NCBI RefSeq assembly: GCF_003051105.1
Contig: NZ_QAOO01000017.1
Location: 1 to 64,000, forward strand
Reading direction: 5' to 3'
From: Nitrosomonas nitrosa
GTDB lineage: Bacteria; Pseudomonadota; Gammaproteobacteria; Burkholderiales; Nitrosomonadaceae
DNA length: 64,000 nt
Under the pieces are notes generated by a model. The model did not search any database. It saw only the letters and a list, made by a program, of their open reading frames with translations, and had not been told where the DNA came from. Shown here piece by piece: positions 1,164 through 8,842 of the stretch. How positions within the stretch are numbered: the first letter of the stretch is position 1; every line of letters begins with the position of its first letter. A program made the position numbers and the translations under genes.

Positions 1164-1943
1164 TCAAGGACAACCCTTGCAACCACTTGTTTTTGCCAAG
1201 TTAAAGATAGCGTTATCAAGAATAGCTTCGCTCAGGTCAGCGTCAGTAAGATCAGCCCCGGTAAAATTGACACCTTGCAAATTCGCGCTGACAAGGGATG
1301 CACCCCGTAAATTAGCAGCGCGCATATTGGCTCCCATTAAGTTGGCACTGTCGAGTTTAGCGCCACTGAGCCGGGCATTGGTAAGGTCTGCACTGGTCAG
1401 CACAGATTCCGTCATATCCGCACCGCTCAAATCCGCATTATGCAGGATGGCCGCTCGCATGTTCGCGCCAACAAGCTGTGCATCGTTGAAGCGCGCTCCC
1501 CGGGCATTTGTCTTTACTAGCGAAGCTTGGTTTAATTTGGCTCCGCGTAATTGCGCACCCGATAAATTTGCTTCATTCAGATTGACTCCTGTCAAATTCG
1601 CTCCAGAAAGCACCGAACGGGTAAATTGAGAGTTCGCCAAATTTGCATTTTGCAGGTCAGCTCCATATAAATTCGCATCCGAACATAACGTACCTCGCCG
1701 AATACTGCACCCATCAATACTACGCATACCCTGTGCAATAGCTTCAGTGCCCATAAACAAAAGCAACACCAAACCGCTTTGAAAAAACTTGGTAAACAGC
1801 TGAAGTACAATGGATATACCACCCAAAATGAAAAGTATACTGAATGAAGGGGCTGGAATCGGGGTACTGCATGTTGTAGCTATGCGAGTACATACTACAT
1901 TTTCTGAGCTAAAGAATCGTTCAAAGATTTTTCTTCTGAGCAT
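1164..1943 (-). CDS. Pentapeptide-repeat protein, exported
   Basis: Up to 259 residues. From about residue 85 to 245 the protein is nearly continuous A(D/N)Lxx pentapeptides (ANLTG, ANLSG, ADLSG, ADLTN, ANLRG), which fold as a right-handed quadrilateral beta-helix. A hydrophobic stretch at about residues 52-68 followed by EAIAQ looks like the core and end of a signal peptide, so the true start is probably an internal non-ATG codon rather than the first Met. The C-terminus SGCKGCP has two Cys and may form a disulfide. The family is structural and the role cannot be inferred here. The gene stands alone. Confidence 0.75.
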   Translation of the reverse strand: MLRRKIFERFFSSENVVCTRIATTCSTPIPAPSFSILFILGGISIVLQLFTKFFQSGLVLLLFMGTEAIAQGMRSIDGCSIRRGTLCSDANLYGADLQNANLANSQFTRSVLSGANLTGVNLNEANLSGAQLRGAKLNQASLVKTNARGARFNDAQLVGANMRAAILHNADLSGADMTESVLTSADLTNARLSGAKLDSANLMGANMRAANLRGASLVSANLQGVNFTGADLTDADLSEAILDNAIFNLAKTSGCKGCP

Positions 1944-2580: not shown

Positions 2581-3333
2581 CTATCCCATCAGGATTATCC
2601 CAAGTCCCCAGCCTATTAGCAGTATTCCTCCCATTCTACAAATTAGCTGACTTTTGCCAGGCGCCGTTTTTTCCAATGTAATGAGCAGGGTGATCAATGC
2701 CATACCGAGCAGATTCATCACGCCCACTGCAAACATGATCAACATCTGTGCCCAGCAACAACCGACACAAATACTGCCATGTTTGAGCCCCATAGAAAAC
2801 GCGCCATACGCCCCTTCTCGCCATTCAGTCAATATAAAACCCATCGGGGTTCGGCAGATTTGTAAAAAATCATTTTTCCAGGGTGTCAATTGATAGATGC
2901 CTGCGCCGATAAATATCGCTCCCGCCAGGCGCTCATTCTGATTCTCCATCATCGGGGATAGGAAGTGCAGTCCATGCAATTGCCATTGCAGCCATGTCAT
3001 CACCATGCTAAATACTAGCCATACCAGCAGATAAGCGAGAACAAACAACACATTCAGATGATGAGAAACTGGATAGCGTTGCCAACAAACTCTGGCAAAC
3101 ACCATAAACATCGGTACGGCTGACGGCAGCATCATGGCGGCCATCATCACCGCCCACATCATATAAACCATGCCAAAATCTATCCATTGCCAGGATGAAA
3201 TGTCTGCCGGCAGCATCCACATGTCCGACATCGGCCGCATAGTCATCTGCCAGTGCTGATAAAAAAGAAAAGCCCAGGCAACCATAACAGCTGTCAATAG
3301 AGACAACACAATCACGGATCGCATTTTAAGCAT
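2581..3333 (-). CDS. DUF2182 integral membrane protein, putative metal binding
   Basis: 250 residues with about six hydrophobic helices. The Met-rich segment MMWAVMMAAMMLPSAVPM at about residues 57-74 is typical of the DUF2182 family, which has been described as predicted metal-binding integral membrane proteins. A second conserved block is GLKHGSICVGCCWAQML near residues 183-199, with Cys and His. The gene is the last of four on the minus strand (5454 to 2581) and lies 100 bp after a DUF1326 gene, its usual partner. Biochemistry is unknown. The Met/Cys/His-rich membrane segments suggest soft-metal handling, which is inference. Confidence 0.85.
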   Translation of the reverse strand: MLKMRSVIVLSLLTAVMVAWAFLFYQHWQMTMRPMSDMWMLPADISSWQWIDFGMVYMMWAVMMAAMMLPSAVPMFMVFARVCWQRYPVSHHLNVLFVLAYLLVWLVFSMVMTWLQWQLHGLHFLSPMMENQNERLAGAIFIGAGIYQLTPWKNDFLQICRTPMGFILTEWREGAYGAFSMGLKHGSICVGCCWAQMLIMFAVGVMNLLGMALITLLITLEKTAPGKSQLICRMGGILLIGWGLGIILMG

Positions 3334-3433: not shown

Positions 3434-4042
3434 CTAGGGTTGATAGGTAAATGACGAGTAAAAGCCATTACGTTCAGTAAATTTCCAGGCTTTGTCGTAA
3501 TCCTGATACTGATAATTGCTGGAGCGCGCCACCACAGCGGGATGGCTGGTCACTACGCATAAGGGGGGATTATCAATCGTGGCATCACCCCCTTTGATAC
3601 CTTTAATGCCTTCAATTTCTGCCTGCGCAATGCCTGGAATAATGAGTTGCCGCTTATTATCCTGGATCTGGTAGTCGATCTTGACCTTCTTGGCACCTAA
3701 TACTTCGCTGACTAAACTCATCAACAGAGCAGGATGACCACCTTGTTGGCCACTAAATATTTGCATAATGGCTTCGAATTGCGCGTCGTCAGCTCGCTCA
3801 TCGACGTATAGGGCAGCTTGCCAGTTACCTTCTATCATCGTTCCTGGTGAATAACAGGCCAAAGCGACATTCAATCCATCCAACGATTGACCATCATAAT
3901 GACCCGATTCGATATGCCAAGCTACCAGCAACTTGCAATTGCCTTCCGAGGGAGGTTGCAGCCAGATACAAGGGCAGGAGGTTACACAGTTACAGGCTTC
4001 AAAATAACTGCCTTGCAACTGCCAGTTTGTTGTTTTATTCAT
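3434..4042 (-). CDS. DUF1326 domain protein
   Basis: 202 residues. The N-terminus contains the family hallmark YFEACNCVTSCPCIW (residues 13-27), a dense cysteine motif that could bind metal, followed by a beta-rich domain of the expected full length. There is no signal peptide, so it is probably cytoplasmic. It is the third gene of the operon, 21 bp after the SDR gene and 100 bp before DUF2182. DUF1326 and DUF2182 commonly sit together, which implies a joint function. That function is not established; metal handling is inference from the cysteines. Confidence 0.85.
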   Translation of the reverse strand: MNKTTNWQLQGSYFEACNCVTSCPCIWLQPPSEGNCKLLVAWHIESGHYDGQSLDGLNVALACYSPGTMIEGNWQAALYVDERADDAQFEAIMQIFSGQQGGHPALLMSLVSEVLGAKKVKIDYQIQDNKRQLIIPGIAQAEIEGIKGIKGGDATIDNPPLCVVTSHPAVVARSSNYQYQDYDKAWKFTERNGFYSSFTYQP

Positions 4043-4063: not shown

Positions 4064-4798
4064 TCAAAATGGTTCTTTAAAGGGACGCAAATCTAATTCA
4101 TGCGTCCACGCGCTTGGCTGCTGTTGATGAATGGCCCAATAAGTTTGGGCAATGGCTTCAGGTTGCAATAAACCTGTTTCACCTTTCGTTTTTACATATT
4201 CCGGGAATTGATTGCGCGCGCGTTCGCCGTCGATGACGCCATCGATGATGGTATGGACGACATGAATCCCGTGCGGGGAGAATTCTCTCGCCAGTCCCTG
4301 AGCTAAGGCTCTCAAAGCGGCTTTGGCAGATGCAAATGCCGTGAAAGGCGGTCTCGCTCTTAAGGAGGCGGTTGCGCCGGTGAAAAACAGTGTGCCATGC
4401 CCATGTGCTTGCATAATATTGAGGGTTTGCTTGGCAAACAAGAACGCGCCCAGACAATTTTGTCGCCATAACACAGCAAATGTTTTCGTTTCCGTTTCCA
4501 TAAAGGGGGCGGGGACGTTGCTATCCACATTATAGACGGCAATGTCGATAGCTTCGCCGCGTGTTCGGACGTGATCGAACAATCGGCGCACATCGTCTTC
4601 CACCGTGATATCGGCCACGACAGGAGTCACCGACCCGCCTGATGCCCGAATATGTTGCACAACCTTATCGAGCTTCTCTGCGCTGCGCCCAGCAATGAAA
4701 ACATGCAAGCCTTTTTCAGCAAAACAACTAGCAAGTGCCGCGCCGAGTCCGCGTACTGGGCCAACACCCGCTACGATGGCTGAAGCAGATTGATTCAT
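4064..4798 (-). CDS. Short-chain dehydrogenase/reductase (SDR)
   Basis: 244 residues, classical SDR length. The nucleotide-binding motif is GVGPVRGLGAALA at residues 11-23, with a probable NADP-type FIAGRSAEKL after beta-2. The usual catalytic YxxxK is altered: the expected position reads FTAFASAKAALRAL (about residues 152-165), with Phe in place of Tyr before the Lys. Either catalysis is changed or it resembles divergent SDRs that lack the Tyr. Its start overlaps the stop of the upstream methyltransferase by 4 bp (ATGA), so the two are translationally coupled in the sigma-54-type operon. Substrate unknown. Confidence 0.85.
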   Translation of the reverse strand: MNQSASAIVAGVGPVRGLGAALASCFAEKGLHVFIAGRSAEKLDKVVQHIRASGGSVTPVVADITVEDDVRRLFDHVRTRGEAIDIAVYNVDSNVPAPFMETETKTFAVLWRQNCLGAFLFAKQTLNIMQAHGHGTLFFTGATASLRARPPFTAFASAKAALRALAQGLAREFSPHGIHVVHTIIDGVIDGERARNQFPEYVKTKGETGLLQPEAIAQTYWAIHQQQPSAWTHELDLRPFKEPF

Positions 4799-5454
4799 CG
4801 TGCGATTCTGCCAAAAACCAAGGAAAAATTATTGCTGGGCATCTCGATTTGTTCCTTGAGTTCCAGACCATGATGGGCCGCGGCTTTCTTCAAGTCAGCT
4901 ATATCTTTGAGGCCCCATTCATCCACGCCCACGGAACGCAGGGTTTCATGGAATTCCCGATTGGAGTCTGAAGAAAATTCACCATGCACTTGGAAAGGGC
5001 CATAGATCAATAAAAACCCGTCATCCTTGAGTAAACGCTCAGCACATTTCATCATGCCATCCGCAATAGTGATGGGCGCCACTTGAAAGATATTGATACA
5101 GAATATCGCAGCAAATGACTTTTCCGGCCCTGGGTTAAACCAGGTTTCGGGATCCGTTAAATCTAAATGGACCGGGTCGGCTATATTATCATTTCCATGT
5201 TCATTGGTTACTTTCTTGATATGATCGAATACTTCGATATCTCGGTCAGATGGCTGGAAATGCAAATGGTTGAAATGGGGTGCGAAATAATTGATATGCA
5301 TCCCACTGCCACTGGCCATCTCCAGAACACGCTCAGGATCCTTGGGCAATTTTTCTTTCAAAACACCCAGTAAAGGCTCACGATTACGCGAACCCGCCCA
5401 AGCCACATACTCGCTTAGCGGGTGAGGATCTAAAGGGGGCATGGCTTGATTCAT
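4795..5454 (-). CDS. DUF938 SAM-dependent methyltransferase-like protein
   Basis: 219 residues and the first gene of the four-gene operon. The start of DUF938 proteins is present (SRNREPLLGVL), then the SAM-binding motif I VLEMASGSGMHINYFAP at about residues 43-59, an acidic post-motif (PSDRD) and AIFCINIFQVAP as motif IV. This is a Rossmann-fold class I methyltransferase fold; the substrate is unknown. A GGAGA ribosome-binding site precedes the ATG. The candidate sigma-54 promoter lies about 100 bp upstream. It overlaps the SDR gene by 4 bp. Confidence 0.85.
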   Translation of the reverse strand: MNQAMPPLDPHPLSEYVAWAGSRNREPLLGVLKEKLPKDPERVLEMASGSGMHINYFAPHFNHLHFQPSDRDIEVFDHIKKVTNEHGNDNIADPVHLDLTDPETWFNPGPEKSFAAIFCINIFQVAPITIADGMMKCAERLLKDDGFLLIYGPFQVHGEFSSDSNREFHETLRSVGVDEWGLKDIADLKKAAAHHGLELKEQIEMPSNNFSLVFGRIAR

Positions 5455-5552
5455 TTTCTAATCTCTCCTACTCATGAAGTTCATTGGTTGCCAGAATTTC
5501 TAGTAAATAGACGTGCTTATCTGCATAACTGTATAGTTACAATAAAGTTAAA

Positions 5553-5568
5553 AGCAAATATCATGCCA
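5553..5568 (-). promoter_or_regulatory. Sigma-54 (-24/-12) promoter for the 5454-2581 operon
   Basis: On the minus strand the sequence reads TGGCATGATATTTGCT. It matches the RpoN consensus TGGCAYRNNNNTTGCW at every defined position, with exactly 10 bases between the GG and GC elements. Transcription would start near 5542, giving a leader of about 88 nt before the methyltransferase ATG at 5454. A short palindrome (TAACT-GTAT-AGTTA, 5526-5539) lies just past the predicted start. The divergent gene encodes a sigma-54 enhancer-binding protein, which makes a chance match less likely. Confidence 0.75.
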
Positions 5569-5640
5569 CCGATCTAAAATTATTTCTTTCATAAACCACA
5601 GTGACTTAGCAAATAATCATTGCCAGATAAATGTAGCTGT

Positions 5641-5668
5641 GCTTCAATTTGTGAAGCTTTGCTTCACA
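5641..5668. promoter_or_regulatory. Candidate enhancer (UAS) for the divergent sigma-54 regulator
   Basis: Three alternating half-sites, GCTTCA (5641-5646), TGAAGC (5652-5657) and GCTTCA (5661-5666), form two overlapping palindromes. The better one is TGTGAAGC-TTT-GCTTCACA at 5650-5668, perfect over 8 bp arms. Its centre is about 117 bp upstream of the predicted sigma-54 start, the normal spacing for an activator site. It also lies 16-34 bp before the regulator's own ATG, so binding could repress that gene. The assignment rests on symmetry and position only. Confidence 0.55.
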
Positions 5669-5683
5669 CAACGCACACCGATC

Positions 5684-7252
5684 ATGAACAATAATCCTCT
5701 TTCTGAGCTCACACCGGTCTTTTTTCTGCAAACTTTTATTCTTGAGCTGATGCACGCCAGCGAGCAACAAGGGCAAAAGCATTGTGAACAGTTGATTGAG
5801 CATATCGCCAAAACTGCGGGATGCTTTTTCGAAGAGACTTATCGCGAAAATGCCCGCAAAAGCGAGCCGCTCGACATCGAGAGTTACATCGAACTCATAC
5901 TTGGCATCAAAAACAATATTGGCGGTAAATTTTCATTGGTGTCCAGCAACCAGGATTGCATTACAGTAACCAATTCCCGTTGTCCATTTGGCGAGCAAGT
6001 AACCCAATTTCCGGAATTATGCAGAATGACCTCCAGCGTATTTGGAGGCATTGCCGCCAGAAACTTCGGCTATGCCAAGGTAGAAATCAAAAAGAGTATA
6101 GCGCGTCTGGATGGCAAGTGTGATGTATGCATTTACACCAACCCTCATGCAGCAAAAGATCATGCGGGTATGGAATACACCGAAACAACCCCCGTCAGGG
6201 AAACGAAGGATATCAATGAACTGCATTGCCGTATAGAAACCAGCATGCAGCGGCTTTGGCACAAGCAAAGTAGTCAAATATCAAAAAAATATTTGCCGCC
6301 AGCCATCGTGGCAAAATCGCCTAAGATGCAACAGATTCTGCAGTCCATCGAGGTTATTGCACCCACCTTAGCAACCGTGTTAATCCAGGGCCAAACAGGG
6401 GTAGGTAAAGAGCTGATTGCCCGCGCCATTCATGCGATGAGCGATCGCAACCCGAAACCATTTATCGCTATTAACTGCGGTGCAATCCCTGAAAGTCTGA
6501 TTGAGAGTGCCTTGTTCGGACACGAAAAAGGCGCTTTTACTGGCGCTATAGAAGTGCACCAGGGCTATTTCGAACGCGCTGAAGGCGGCACCCTGTTTCT
6601 GGATGAAGTCGATTCATTATCACCAGCTGCGCAAACACGATTGCTGCGAGTGCTTCAGGAGGGCGAACTGGAAAGAGTGGGCGGCAGACAAACATTGTCT
6701 ATTGATGTACGAATCATCTCGGCAACGAATAAAAACCTAGAAAATCTGGTCAAACAGCATCTGTTTCGCAATGATCTTTATTACCGCATTAATGTCGTCC
6801 GCTTAAGCGTTCCTTCATTGTCTGAACGACCAGAGGATTTACCTTACTTAGTGCAATTGATCATTCAGCGTTTGAACAAGCGTTATAACAAGCGCATTGA
6901 AAGCGTCAGCAGAGAAGTCATGCAGAAAATCCACGCTTATCATTGGCCAGGCAACGTTCGTGAACTGGAGAATATCCTTGAACGCAGCATTCTGTTTGCC
7001 AACGGCGAAGTAATGACTGATCTCGATTTAGAACTTCCAATCAAGGCAGAAAGTATTGGTGAATGGAAAGATGCAAAAAAACACACTTTTGCCAGAATTG
7101 AGCAATCGTTACTTGAAACAGCCTTAAAGCAGCATCATGGAAATATAAAAAGCGTTTCTGATACGATGGGCATTACATCACGCGCGGTTTACGCCAAACT
7201 AAAAAAATACCAAATTAACTTGGCAGATTATCGCAAACCCAGCCAAAGATAA
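5684..7252 (+). CDS. Sigma-54-dependent enhancer-binding regulator with cysteine sensor domain
   Basis: 522 residues from the ATG at 5684. The frame also allows an upstream GTG at 5639, but that would place the palindromic operator inside the gene. Residues 80-155 resemble the small-molecule or iron-sulfur type domain called MetOD1/V4R-like, with four cysteines (C100 in CPFG, C113, C146, C149). The AAA+ domain follows: Walker A GQTGVGK at 236-242, sigma-54 contact loop GAFTGA at 283-288, Walker B TLFLDE at 303-308. A Fis-type helix-turn-helix ends the protein (GNIKSVSDTMGITSRAVYAKL). There is no receiver domain, so activation is probably direct sensing by the N-terminus. It is divergent from the operon it likely controls and convergent with rpoN. 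Confidence 0.9.
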   Translation: MNNNPLSELTPVFFLQTFILELMHASEQQGQKHCEQLIEHIAKTAGCFFEETYRENARKSEPLDIESYIELILGIKNNIGGKFSLVSSNQDCITVTNSRCPFGEQVTQFPELCRMTSSVFGGIAARNFGYAKVEIKKSIARLDGKCDVCIYTNPHAAKDHAGMEYTETTPVRETKDINELHCRIETSMQRLWHKQSSQISKKYLPPAIVAKSPKMQQILQSIEVIAPTLATVLIQGQTGVGKELIARAIHAMSDRNPKPFIAINCGAIPESLIESALFGHEKGAFTGAIEVHQGYFERAEGGTLFLDEVDSLSPAAQTRLLRVLQEGELERVGGRQTLSIDVRIISATNKNLENLVKQHLFRNDLYYRINVVRLSVPSLSERPEDLPYLVQLIIQRLNKRYNKRIESVSREVMQKIHAYHWPGNVRELENILERSILFANGEVMTDLDLELPIKAESIGEWKDAKKHTFARIEQSLLETALKQHHGNIKSVSDTMGITSRAVYAKLKKYQINLADYRKPSQR

Positions 7253-7375: not shown

Positions 7376-8842
7376 TTAAACAGTTTTACGCAGATTAGCC
7401 GGTGGAATATGCATGGCTTCGCGGTATTTCGCAACGGTTCGACGTGCCACTATAATGCCCTGCCCCCCTAGAATTTCTGAAATACGGCTATCAGTCAGGG
7501 GTTTCTTTTGGTCCTCCTCCTGAATCATCTGCTTGATGAGGGTGCGAATGGCGATTGCGGAGCACGACCCTCCACTCTCGGTCGCAACGTGGCTACCAAA
7601 AAAATACTTGAGTTCTAGAATACCATGTGGGGTATACATAAACTTTTGCGTGGTTACCCTCGATACTGTTGATTCATGTAGATTCAAGTTTTCAGCAATC
7701 TCTCGCATGACGAGAGGACGCATAGCGACTGCTCCATGTTCAAAAAAGGCTTGTTGGCGCTCGACAATCGCATTGGATACACTTAGTATCGTTTCCGATC
7801 GCTGCTGAATGTTTTTAAGGAGCCATTTAGCCTCGTTAAGCTGTGTCATCAACATTTGTGCGGAATCATTCCGATCACGCTTCAATATATCCGCGTAGAG
7901 TTGATTGATACTGAGATGGGGAATCGAATCAGGATTAAGGCGAGCAACCCAAGCATCATCGACTTTAGTCACAACCACATCGGGGACGATGTAACGCGAA
8001 ACCGTTGAATTGAATGCATCCCCGGGTCTAGGATTGAGTTGGGTAATCAATTGCTGCACAGCCCGTAAACAATCATCATCGCAATGAAACAATTTCTTGA
8101 TCTGCCTAAAATCTTTCGAGGCAAGCGCATCGAGCGCTTGCTCTACCAACAAAATGGTCTCATCACGATAGAGCGTCTCCTCCGGAAGTGCTCGAAGCTG
8201 TAAAAGTAAACACTCTTGTAAATCGCGCGCACCCACTCCAGGTGGATCTAACTGTTGCAAATACGCGAGCGCTGCGTTCAAATCATCAAGCCGAAGCCCT
8301 AATTCTGCAGGTAGCATCTCCAGGAGTTCATGCAAATCTTGCTTAAGATAGCCATCCTCATCCAGGCTATCAATCAATATTTGTATAATTTTGCGATCAC
8401 GCTCATTAACCTGGCTCAAGCTGACCTGCATGGCAAGATGCTCGCGCAAACTTGGCGACATGATCGCCTGTTGAGAAGCATCCCACTCGTCGCCATGCCC
8501 TTCCCGTGTATTATAAAAAGTTTCGTGATCACCGAACCAATCAGCATTCTCCTCAGGAGAAGAGAATGACTCCAGTTCATTTCTTTCACTCGGCATCGTT
8601 TCTTCATACGATTCTGCTTGAGACGCGATCTCATCGGAAGCTATCGGCGCCATTGAATCTTTGTCATGAGTTTGCTCATAGCTCACGCTATCGCCCAATT
8701 CTAATAAAGGATTAGTTTGTACGATGCGTTCGATCTCTTGATTCAATTCAAGTGTAGACAGTTGCAACAATTTGATCGCCTGTTGCAACTGGGGTGTCAG
8801 CGTAAGACTAGGCGTTAACTTAAGCTGAAGAGTAGGCTTCAT
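7376..8842 (-). CDS. rpoN: RNA polymerase sigma-54 factor
   Basis: 488 residues, normal for RpoN. The glutamine- and leucine-rich region I is present (LTPQLQQAIKLLQLSTLELNQ cut short here; residues 15-35), an acidic region II follows, then the core-binding domain and the C-terminal RpoN box ARRTVAKYRE at about residues 466-475, which contacts the -24 element. It is the last gene of lptC-lptA-lptB-rpoN, 54 bp after lptB, a conserved order in proteobacteria. The genes that often follow rpoN (hpf, ptsN) are absent here; instead the enhancer-binding protein gene converges on it 123 bp away. Confidence 0.97.
   Translation of the reverse strand: MKPTLQLKLTPSLTLTPQLQQAIKLLQLSTLELNQEIERIVQTNPLLELGDSVSYEQTHDKDSMAPIASDEIASQAESYEETMPSERNELESFSSPEENADWFGDHETFYNTREGHGDEWDASQQAIMSPSLREHLAMQVSLSQVNERDRKIIQILIDSLDEDGYLKQDLHELLEMLPAELGLRLDDLNAALAYLQQLDPPGVGARDLQECLLLQLRALPEETLYRDETILLVEQALDALASKDFRQIKKLFHCDDDCLRAVQQLITQLNPRPGDAFNSTVSRYIVPDVVVTKVDDAWVARLNPDSIPHLSINQLYADILKRDRNDSAQMLMTQLNEAKWLLKNIQQRSETILSVSNAIVERQQAFFEHGAVAMRPLVMREIAENLNLHESTVSRVTTQKFMYTPHGILELKYFFGSHVATESGGSCSAIAIRTLIKQMIQEEDQKKPLTDSRISEILGGQGIIVARRTVAKYREAMHIPPANLRKTV

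Follow-up and report, generated by a model that had tools for sequence, protein, structure and literature searches.

The window analysed here, the first 64,000 nucleotides of contig 17 (NZ_QAOO01000017.1) in the 3.42 Mb genome of Nitrosomonas nitrosa (assembly GCF_003051105.1; genus Nitrosomonas), carries a predicted sigma-54 regulatory module, in which a -24/-12 promoter and a pair of upstream sites lie between the gene for a sigma-54 enhancer-binding activator and a divergent four-gene operon for a DUF938 methyltransferase-like protein, a short-chain dehydrogenase/reductase (SDR), a DUF1326 protein and a DUF2182 protein, now PpoB2 (Table 1). Judged by sequence comparison, it is nearly certain that promoter, paired sites, divergent activator and operon form one conserved module. 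By gene neighbourhood, the activator family is also strongly linked to genes for carbon disulfide (CS2) hydrolase-like proteins (CS2H). We consider it probable that the protein is a one-component activator for CS2- or carbonyl sulfide (COS)-type sulfur chemistry, the DUF938 operon being a branch of the regulon seen with copper monooxygenases.

Table 1. Coordinates of the predicted features in the window
Feature	Position	Strand	Remarks
PpoB2 (formerly DUF2182)	2581..3333	-	PF09948, E 8.2e-64; Met-/Cys-rich membrane protein, copper-chaperone family
DUF1326 protein	3434..4042	-	PF07040, E 8e-59; seven conserved Cys
SDR	4064..4798	-	PF00106, E 1.3e-30; 4 bp overlap with DUF938 stop
DUF938 S-adenosylmethionine-dependent methyltransferase-like protein, operon gene 1	4795..5454	-	PF06080, E 8e-58
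Predicted -24/-12 sigma-54 promoter TGGCATGATATTTGCT	5553..5568	-	GG-N10-GC spacing
Putative activator site 2, TGAAG-N5-CTACA on minus strand	5632..5646		20 bp from site 1
Putative activator site 1, palindrome TGTGAAGC-TTT-GCTTCACA	5650..5668		core 5652-5666
Sigma-54 enhancer-binding activator, 522 aa from ATG 5684	5684..7252	+	Pfam Sigma54_activat, AAA_lid_14, HTH_8, MetOD1
rpoN	7376..8842	-	convergent to activator, 123 bp apart

Sigma-54 promoters follow the consensus TGGCACG-N4-TTGCW. The promoter of the window, the sole exact copy of its sequence in the genome, differs from this consensus at one position (T for C at position 6, a less conserved base) and scores 17.4 with a weight matrix. 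An earlier note on this DNA had placed the promoter correctly at 5568-5553 with the GG-N10-GC spacing, but its statement that all defined bases match is true only for the TGGCAY form. Both putative activator sites are of the TGAAG-N5-CTTCA type with cores 20 bp apart, and the paired-site pattern, with up to 3 mismatches allowed, has a single occurrence in the whole genome, in keeping with the earlier description of the module as self-contained. Counted from a transcript start that we place near 5543, the site centres lie ~116 and ~96 bp upstream, the former close to the ~117 bp given before for the palindrome. The gene identities proposed for the operon were all matched by Pfam, and the divergent gene, read before as that of a sigma-54 enhancer-binding protein, has the AAA+ domain (PF00158, E 6.2e-70, with GAFTGA present in the translation) and the C-terminal Fis-type helix-turn-helix (PF02954, E 1.5e-8) of an enhancer-binding protein. 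Its start is probably ATG 5684, 15 bases beyond the palindrome, because the listed GTG 5639 would place the palindrome within the gene.

We compared 109 activator-target intergenic regions of at least 250 bp, 78 of them unique; L201 (224 bp upstream) and two remote same-genus loci (L125, L126) were left out of these statistics. The best promoter score was at least 9 in 78, at least 11 in 77, at least 14 in 71 and at least 17 in 47 of the unique regions, and the site lay 104-118 nt from the activator start in 78/78, as it did in 79 of the 80 loci of the wider scan described below. The paired sites were present in 78/78 with 0-5 mismatches of 20. As a control, 3120 dinucleotide shuffles of such regions gave a score of at least 9 in 5.9%, at least 14 in 0.1% and 17 in none; 0.45% had a site of at least 9 inside the 104-118 nt interval, the best paired sites had 6 mismatches (13/3120), and the observed pair quality was reached by 0/3120. 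These statistics are descriptions, not exact probabilities, because related sequences are not independent. L201 carries the paired sites, but every promoter match there stays below 9. The layout expected of a sigma-54 activator, with repeated sites upstream and a -24/-12 promoter in front of the target gene, is predicted by sequence throughout the 78 regions. Conservation across the regions is concentrated in the paired sites, the promoter and a TTG-containing AT-rich block. An AT-rich block between the activator sites and the promoter (5596-5608 in the window) is similar to an IHF site in many relatives, with 0-2 mismatches of 9 in 77 of the 78 regions (best of both strands; no shuffle control), but looks weak in the window.

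DUF1326 occurs in 27 of 85 same-genus genomes, and at the loci of the 26 relatives, all of which were examined, the order DUF938, SDR, DUF1326 is kept in 26/26 (the DUF1326 gene of L054 is cut by a contig end); PpoB2 comes next in 25/26 (partial at the contig end in L032) and lies past the contig end in L054. In two of them, L030 and L031, the activator adjoins the operon; both keep the palindrome, and their promoters stand at -111 and -112 relative to the start of DUF938 (-114 in the window). The other 24 operons have no promoter match of at least 14 and no paired sites. Both elements are thus present in the three genomes with an adjacent activator, the window's included. That 24/26 relatives keep the operon without either fulfils part of what the earlier note had named as a refutation; as these 24 also have no adjacent activator, however, the lack of promoter and palindrome reads as uncoupling from the activator. 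A whole-genome search gave no sensor match in 18 of the 24 genomes, a close activator elsewhere in five (G038, G039, G054, G066, G076) and a remote one in G011. Used as controls, the 24 activator-less operons contain two promoter scores of at least 11 (L042, L049) and none of at least 14, and their best paired site has 7 mismatches, so that none was counted as paired sites. Both promoter candidates were set aside: the near-match of L042, TGGTATACTATTTGCA at -50 with a score of 12.7, overlaps a TATACT element recurring in activator-less operons, and no sensor match was found in that genome; the match of L049 (11.7, at -100) was placed inside an upstream reading frame by eye. TATAC[TC] within 160 bp of the start occurs in 13 of the 24 activator-less operons (L029, L032-L054) and in 6% of shuffles, which is no more than a hint that these operons passed to an ordinary promoter.

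What the activator family usually faces in the genus is a different gene. The 209-aa sensor was found in 29/85 same-genus genomes (an extra weak match in G036 is a fragment), and we read 31 same-genus activator loci plus the window. The usual divergent gene is the 217-aa CS2H, the exceptions being the window, L030, L031, L124, L125 and L126; the remote L125 and L126 have CS2H downstream, with sites scoring 17.1 and 18.9. Conversely, full-length CS2H occurs in 28 copies in 26 of the 85 genomes, and 28/28 adjoin an activator of the window family. The genus-wide search gave as extras two fragments and one 33% match (G052), which is of the beta-carbonic anhydrase (beta-CA) type and 82% identical to it. 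The activator genomes without CS2H are G000, G003 and G004, exactly those with the DUF938 operon beside the activator. The earlier interpretation was right in seeing a conserved module, but it missed the CS2-hydrolase-like gene as the family's common partner, which gives the DUF938 operon a functional context. At some of these loci the arrangement is modified. In L120, a 415-aa transposase-like frame stands between promoter and CS2H, 291-1538 bp before the activator start, and in L105-L110 a MITE-like insert bounded by the inverted repeat AACAGGCCGTTGAAAAACT / AGTTTTTCAACGGCCTGTT occupies the leader between promoter and CS2H (by eye). The activator of L124/L187 (Nitrosomonas supralitoralis, second copy) is diverged, with a sensor identity of 75%; opposite it, where CS2H would otherwise stand, is the gene for a MEDS-domain (DcmR sensory) protein, and promoter and paired sites are kept.

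CS2H has its best PDB match in the CS2 hydrolase 3ten (E 9.5e-53 over 187 aa), followed at a distance by the COS hydrolase 3vqj (7e-17), and its match to carbonic anhydrases is far weaker (E 2.2e-23) than that to the CS2 hydrolase. The CS2 hydrolase of 3ten/3teo is from Acidianus. FFGT is kept in 64/64 aligned rows and the CMDER motif in 64 (rows repeated between sets), and a passage of PMC6382920 names a 'Phe-Phe' motif of CS2 hydrolase; by homology and by this motif, CS2H is a predicted CS2 hydrolase. COS and CS2 hydrolases are assigned to beta-CA clade D in a part of PMC13098186 in which Nitrosomonas and methanotrophs are unnamed. Thus, the family's common partner is homologous to 3ten, whereas the window itself has no hydrolase gene. 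No regulator of CS2 or COS hydrolases was found in the open-licence literature searched.

Beyond the genus, we scanned one genome per species and took the best 80 of 200 sensor relatives, a set from which near records of the window may be omitted and in which many Nitrosomonas loci come from the same genomes as the 85-genome set, so that the two sets are not independent. By title, the taxa are Nitrosomonas, Nitrosospira, Nitrosovibrio, the methanotrophs Methylobacter, Methylovulum, Methylomonas, Methylomicrobium and Methylotuvimicrobium, metagenome-assembled genomes (MAGs) of Methylococcaceae/Methylococcales, and a few MAGs whose names are vague or odd. Counted from the promoter, the first gene is DUF938 in 48 loci, CS2H in 27 (KS41 included), a beta-CA in one and MEDS in one; three have no cargo assignment (L177, with an SDR fragment only, L186 and L201). 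A beta-CA-type gene directly follows DUF938 in 20/48 loci. Both cargoes meet in Methylobacter KS41 (a MAG, L151), where CS2H, DUF938, beta-CA, SDR, DUF1326 and PpoB2 form one run, although a shared transcript is not certain because ~690 bases separate CS2H and DUF938. In L162, a second DUF938 followed by a beta-CA-type gene lies on the same strand ~5.0 kb upstream of the activator.

In a sample of 369 genomes of the class, the sensor profile had matches at 1e-20 in 32, with an activator-length open frame in 14 (G000 and G066 included). The 12 other, distant activators are 42-65% identical and include that of G349, the Methylotuvimicrobium locus L206. They lie within 2.7 kb of CS2H (9/12) or beta-CA (3/12), and a -24/-12-like site scoring 11.8-17.4 precedes the CS2H or beta-CA gene at 12/12 (no shuffle control). 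In a phylum sample of 398 genomes, sensor matches at 1e-36 were found only in G000 and G066.

The sensor occupies residues ~1-170 of the activator and contains Cys100, Cys113, Cys146 and Cys149, the first three invariant in 65 aligned rows and the last kept in at least 90%. A model from these rows reached pLDDT 71.7 and pTM 0.67 (a full-length AlphaFold model without alignment, pLDDT 36.2, was set aside), and Foldseek matched it to TRAPP/Bet3 (2.6e-5), DmpR (2.6e-3), MopR (3.3e-3) and H-NOX (4.4e-3), which predicts a Bet3/V4R-like fold. Because the predicted fold is near Bet3, DmpR and MopR, the sensor is modelled to work like that of a V4R-type one-component activator, but V4R and XylR_N, the domains of the DmpR/MopR group, have no Pfam match in the activator at E 0.01, and MetOD1 is matched instead. 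The layout of sensor, AAA+ and Fis helix-turn-helix is shared with DmpR/CapR, MopR, PoxR and PheR, which likewise have neighbouring target genes with a -24/-12 promoter. In MopR-type sensors, as given in part of PMC10715001, His and Trp anchor phenol, and three Cys and one Glu form a zinc site; the cysteines of the window sensor are candidates for binding zinc. The targets differ, being phenol oxidation genes in the DmpR/MopR group and CS2H/beta-CA genes or DUF938 operons here.

We propose the following mechanism, in which binding, sigma-54 dependence, inducer, enzyme activities and the task of the operon are all inferred. An activator oligomer would bind the two sites, 20 bp apart on the same face of the DNA ~96 and ~116 bp upstream; a signal at the Bet3/V4R-like sensor would then cause the AAA+ ring to open sigma-54 polymerase at the -24/-12 promoter, which would lead to expression of the DUF938-SDR-DUF1326-PpoB2 operon. 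Since the common target of the family is a CS2-hydrolase-like or other beta-CA-fold gene, the most likely signal, as read from the partner genes, is CS2, COS or another small sulfur compound of that kind. In ammonia and methane oxidizers, this promoter would often drive the DUF938 genes as an extra operon, which may handle the consequences for cells with copper monooxygenases, for example copper handling or sulfide/thiol chemistry; in the window genome, where no hydrolase gene was found, this extra operon alone would remain. Only tentatively do we go further, to an undescribed sigma-54 CS2/COS regulon with a new four-cysteine Bet3/V4R-like sensor, to which copper-monooxygenase bacteria would add the DUF938-SDR-DUF1326-PpoB2 operon for protection or repair, keeping ammonia monooxygenase (AMO) or particulate methane monooxygenase (pMMO) copper-supplied or clearing products under sulfur-gas attack.

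Several observations weigh against the sulfur-gas reading. Neither CS2H (E 1e-10) nor a beta-CA-type gene (E 1e-15) was found in G000, G003 and G004, an odd finding for a response to CS2 or COS, and the beta-CA-type gene is nearer ordinary beta-CAs than COS or CS2 hydrolase. In 24/26 same-genus relatives the operon stands apart from the activator, and it may therefore serve a function independent of the activator's signal. The paired sites are weak or not found at most distant activators. The sensor model has the moderate confidence given above (pLDDT 71.7), and the sensor profile has no match to PDB sequences at E 10. Finally, 8 of 16 further module genomes, all 8 of them MAGs or bins by title and so possibly incomplete, gave no match to the copper monooxygenase family PF02461 (amoA/pmoA).

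The strongest competitor, which we regard as rather unlikely, is a signal that reflects the condition of the copper monooxygenase, be it too little or too much copper or a substance other than CS2/COS that AMO/pMMO produces or is inhibited by; PpoB2 and DUF1326 would then be the main output and the hydrolases secondary. PpoB2 is described in part of PMC2855505 as a copper-transfer protein for a Marinomonas tyrosinase. This PpoB2 (COG5486) shares its Pfam family with the product of the final operon gene, although the window operon has no tyrosinase and its partners are DUF1326, SDR and DUF938. Cys, Met and His sets are conserved in DUF1326 (48 rows) and PpoB2 (47 rows), including seven Cys of DUF1326 kept in at least 97% of the 48 copies; for DUF938 and DUF1326 no PDB sequence relative was found at E 0.001. 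PF02461 was detected in the three genomes with the DUF938 operon beside the activator (G000, G003 and G004, the window's genome among them), in 11/13 genomes of ammonia or methane oxidizers with named records (not found in G471 and G474), and in the distant-activator genomes G236 (cargo DUF938) and G349 (SDR-DUF1326-PpoB2), against 0/10 of the other distant ones. DUF938 relatives of at least 50% identity occur in the class sample only in G000, G066 and G236, with five more at 36-40%. What speaks against a copper signal is that the activator family also occurs in the genomes without PF02461, near CS2H or beta-CA in 10/10; an ancestral signal would thus be expected to act without AMO or pMMO. 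A strict tie between activator and copper monooxygenase is rejected on the same absence of PF02461 from 10/12 distant activator genomes. The activator-CS2H pair thus appears wider than copper monooxygenases, whereas DUF938-type cargo is mainly seen with them, a link that stays short of proof because MAGs have gaps. The regulation of soluble methane monooxygenase by MmoR, likened here by description, is likewise sigma-54-linked in a methane oxidizer, with different target genes; PMC10992012, on a methane oxidizer, lists rpoN in a table and cites a work with mmoR in its title.

It is improbable that the beta-CA-fold genes encode genuine carbonic anhydrases, with the module answering low CO2 or bicarbonate. 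Nitrosomonas are autotrophs, CS2H and the beta-CA-type protein retain the beta-CA Pfam and zinc motifs, and the latter best matches carbonic anhydrases; against this, CS2H is far nearer the Acidianus CS2 hydrolase, its Phe-Phe motif is kept, and the window operon has no carbonic anhydrase gene.

Still less probable is a regulator capture, in which a rearrangement placed a CS2-hydrolase regulator and its promoter in front of an unrelated operon, the two having no function in common. The trees bear on this. The 27 Nitrosomonas rows of a 70-row DUF938+SDR tree all fall in a single clade (100/99), with the window, L031, L030 and the activator-less L029 on one side (100/99) and 23 activator-less rows on the other (99/93). 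The tree of the activators (88 rows; built by a quick method with SH-aLRT support alone and with long-branch warnings; loci without assigned cargo labelled as DUF938 group by default) places the window, L030 and L031 within a 24-row clade (99), the rest of which comprises 20 activators of ammonia oxidizers linked to CS2H and the one linked to MEDS; Methylobacter KS41 branches immediately outside this clade. Such nesting in a mostly CS2H-linked clade would suit a capture, as would the 24/26 relatives' operons without an adjacent activator, but DUF938 starts at the same promoter in 48/80 wider loci, mostly of methanotrophs by title, and KS41 holds both cargoes in one run. A cargo swap within Nitrosomonas was likewise dropped in favour of an ancestral combined operon, because the wider loci show the DUF938 arrangement to be common in methanotrophs. 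The simplest history would start from a combined operon like that of KS41, exchanged between methanotrophs and ammonia oxidizers and later split or trimmed: CS2H would have stayed with the activator in most Nitrosomonas carriers, and the window's group would have lost the hydrolases. Alternatively, activator and operon may have come together a second time. Chance origin of the -24/-12 site and palindromes, to be considered since a lone match of such a type proves little, is already refuted by sequence and position conserved in 78/78 unique regions and missing from the 24 controls.

DUF938, DUF1326 and DUF2182/PpoB2, whose functions are unknown or thinly described, gain from this a regulatory context shared with CS2-hydrolase-like enzymes. 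No description of the regulon was found among the top matches in the open-licence literature searched, from which the words DUF938, DUF1326 and DUF2182 are absent. If true, a sulfur-gas switch would bear on how nitrifiers and methanotrophs cope with natural inhibitors and on the soil COS sink, and would provide a ready biosensor.

The earlier note had also given weight to rpoN at the end of the unit. The convergent neighbour is there, but within the flanks taken no rpoN was found at the 26 same-genus operon loci or the 80 activator loci; a role for this adjacency is thereby rejected, and it is incidental. Sigma-54 activator domains with a strong match (E at most 1.5e-58) number seven in the genome, and the window activator is therefore one of several such regulators. 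Past the operon end lies a pentapeptide-repeat protein gene (1164-1943, minus strand). In the class sample, the other listed genomes have shorter stand-alone sensor-domain frames of ~110-245 codons, some with stops. Stand-alone sensor-domain proteins of ~170-210 aa occur at L251, L253, L254, L256, L257 and L258, several adjoining PAS-like signalling proteins and one an rsx/rnf-like cluster (by eye).

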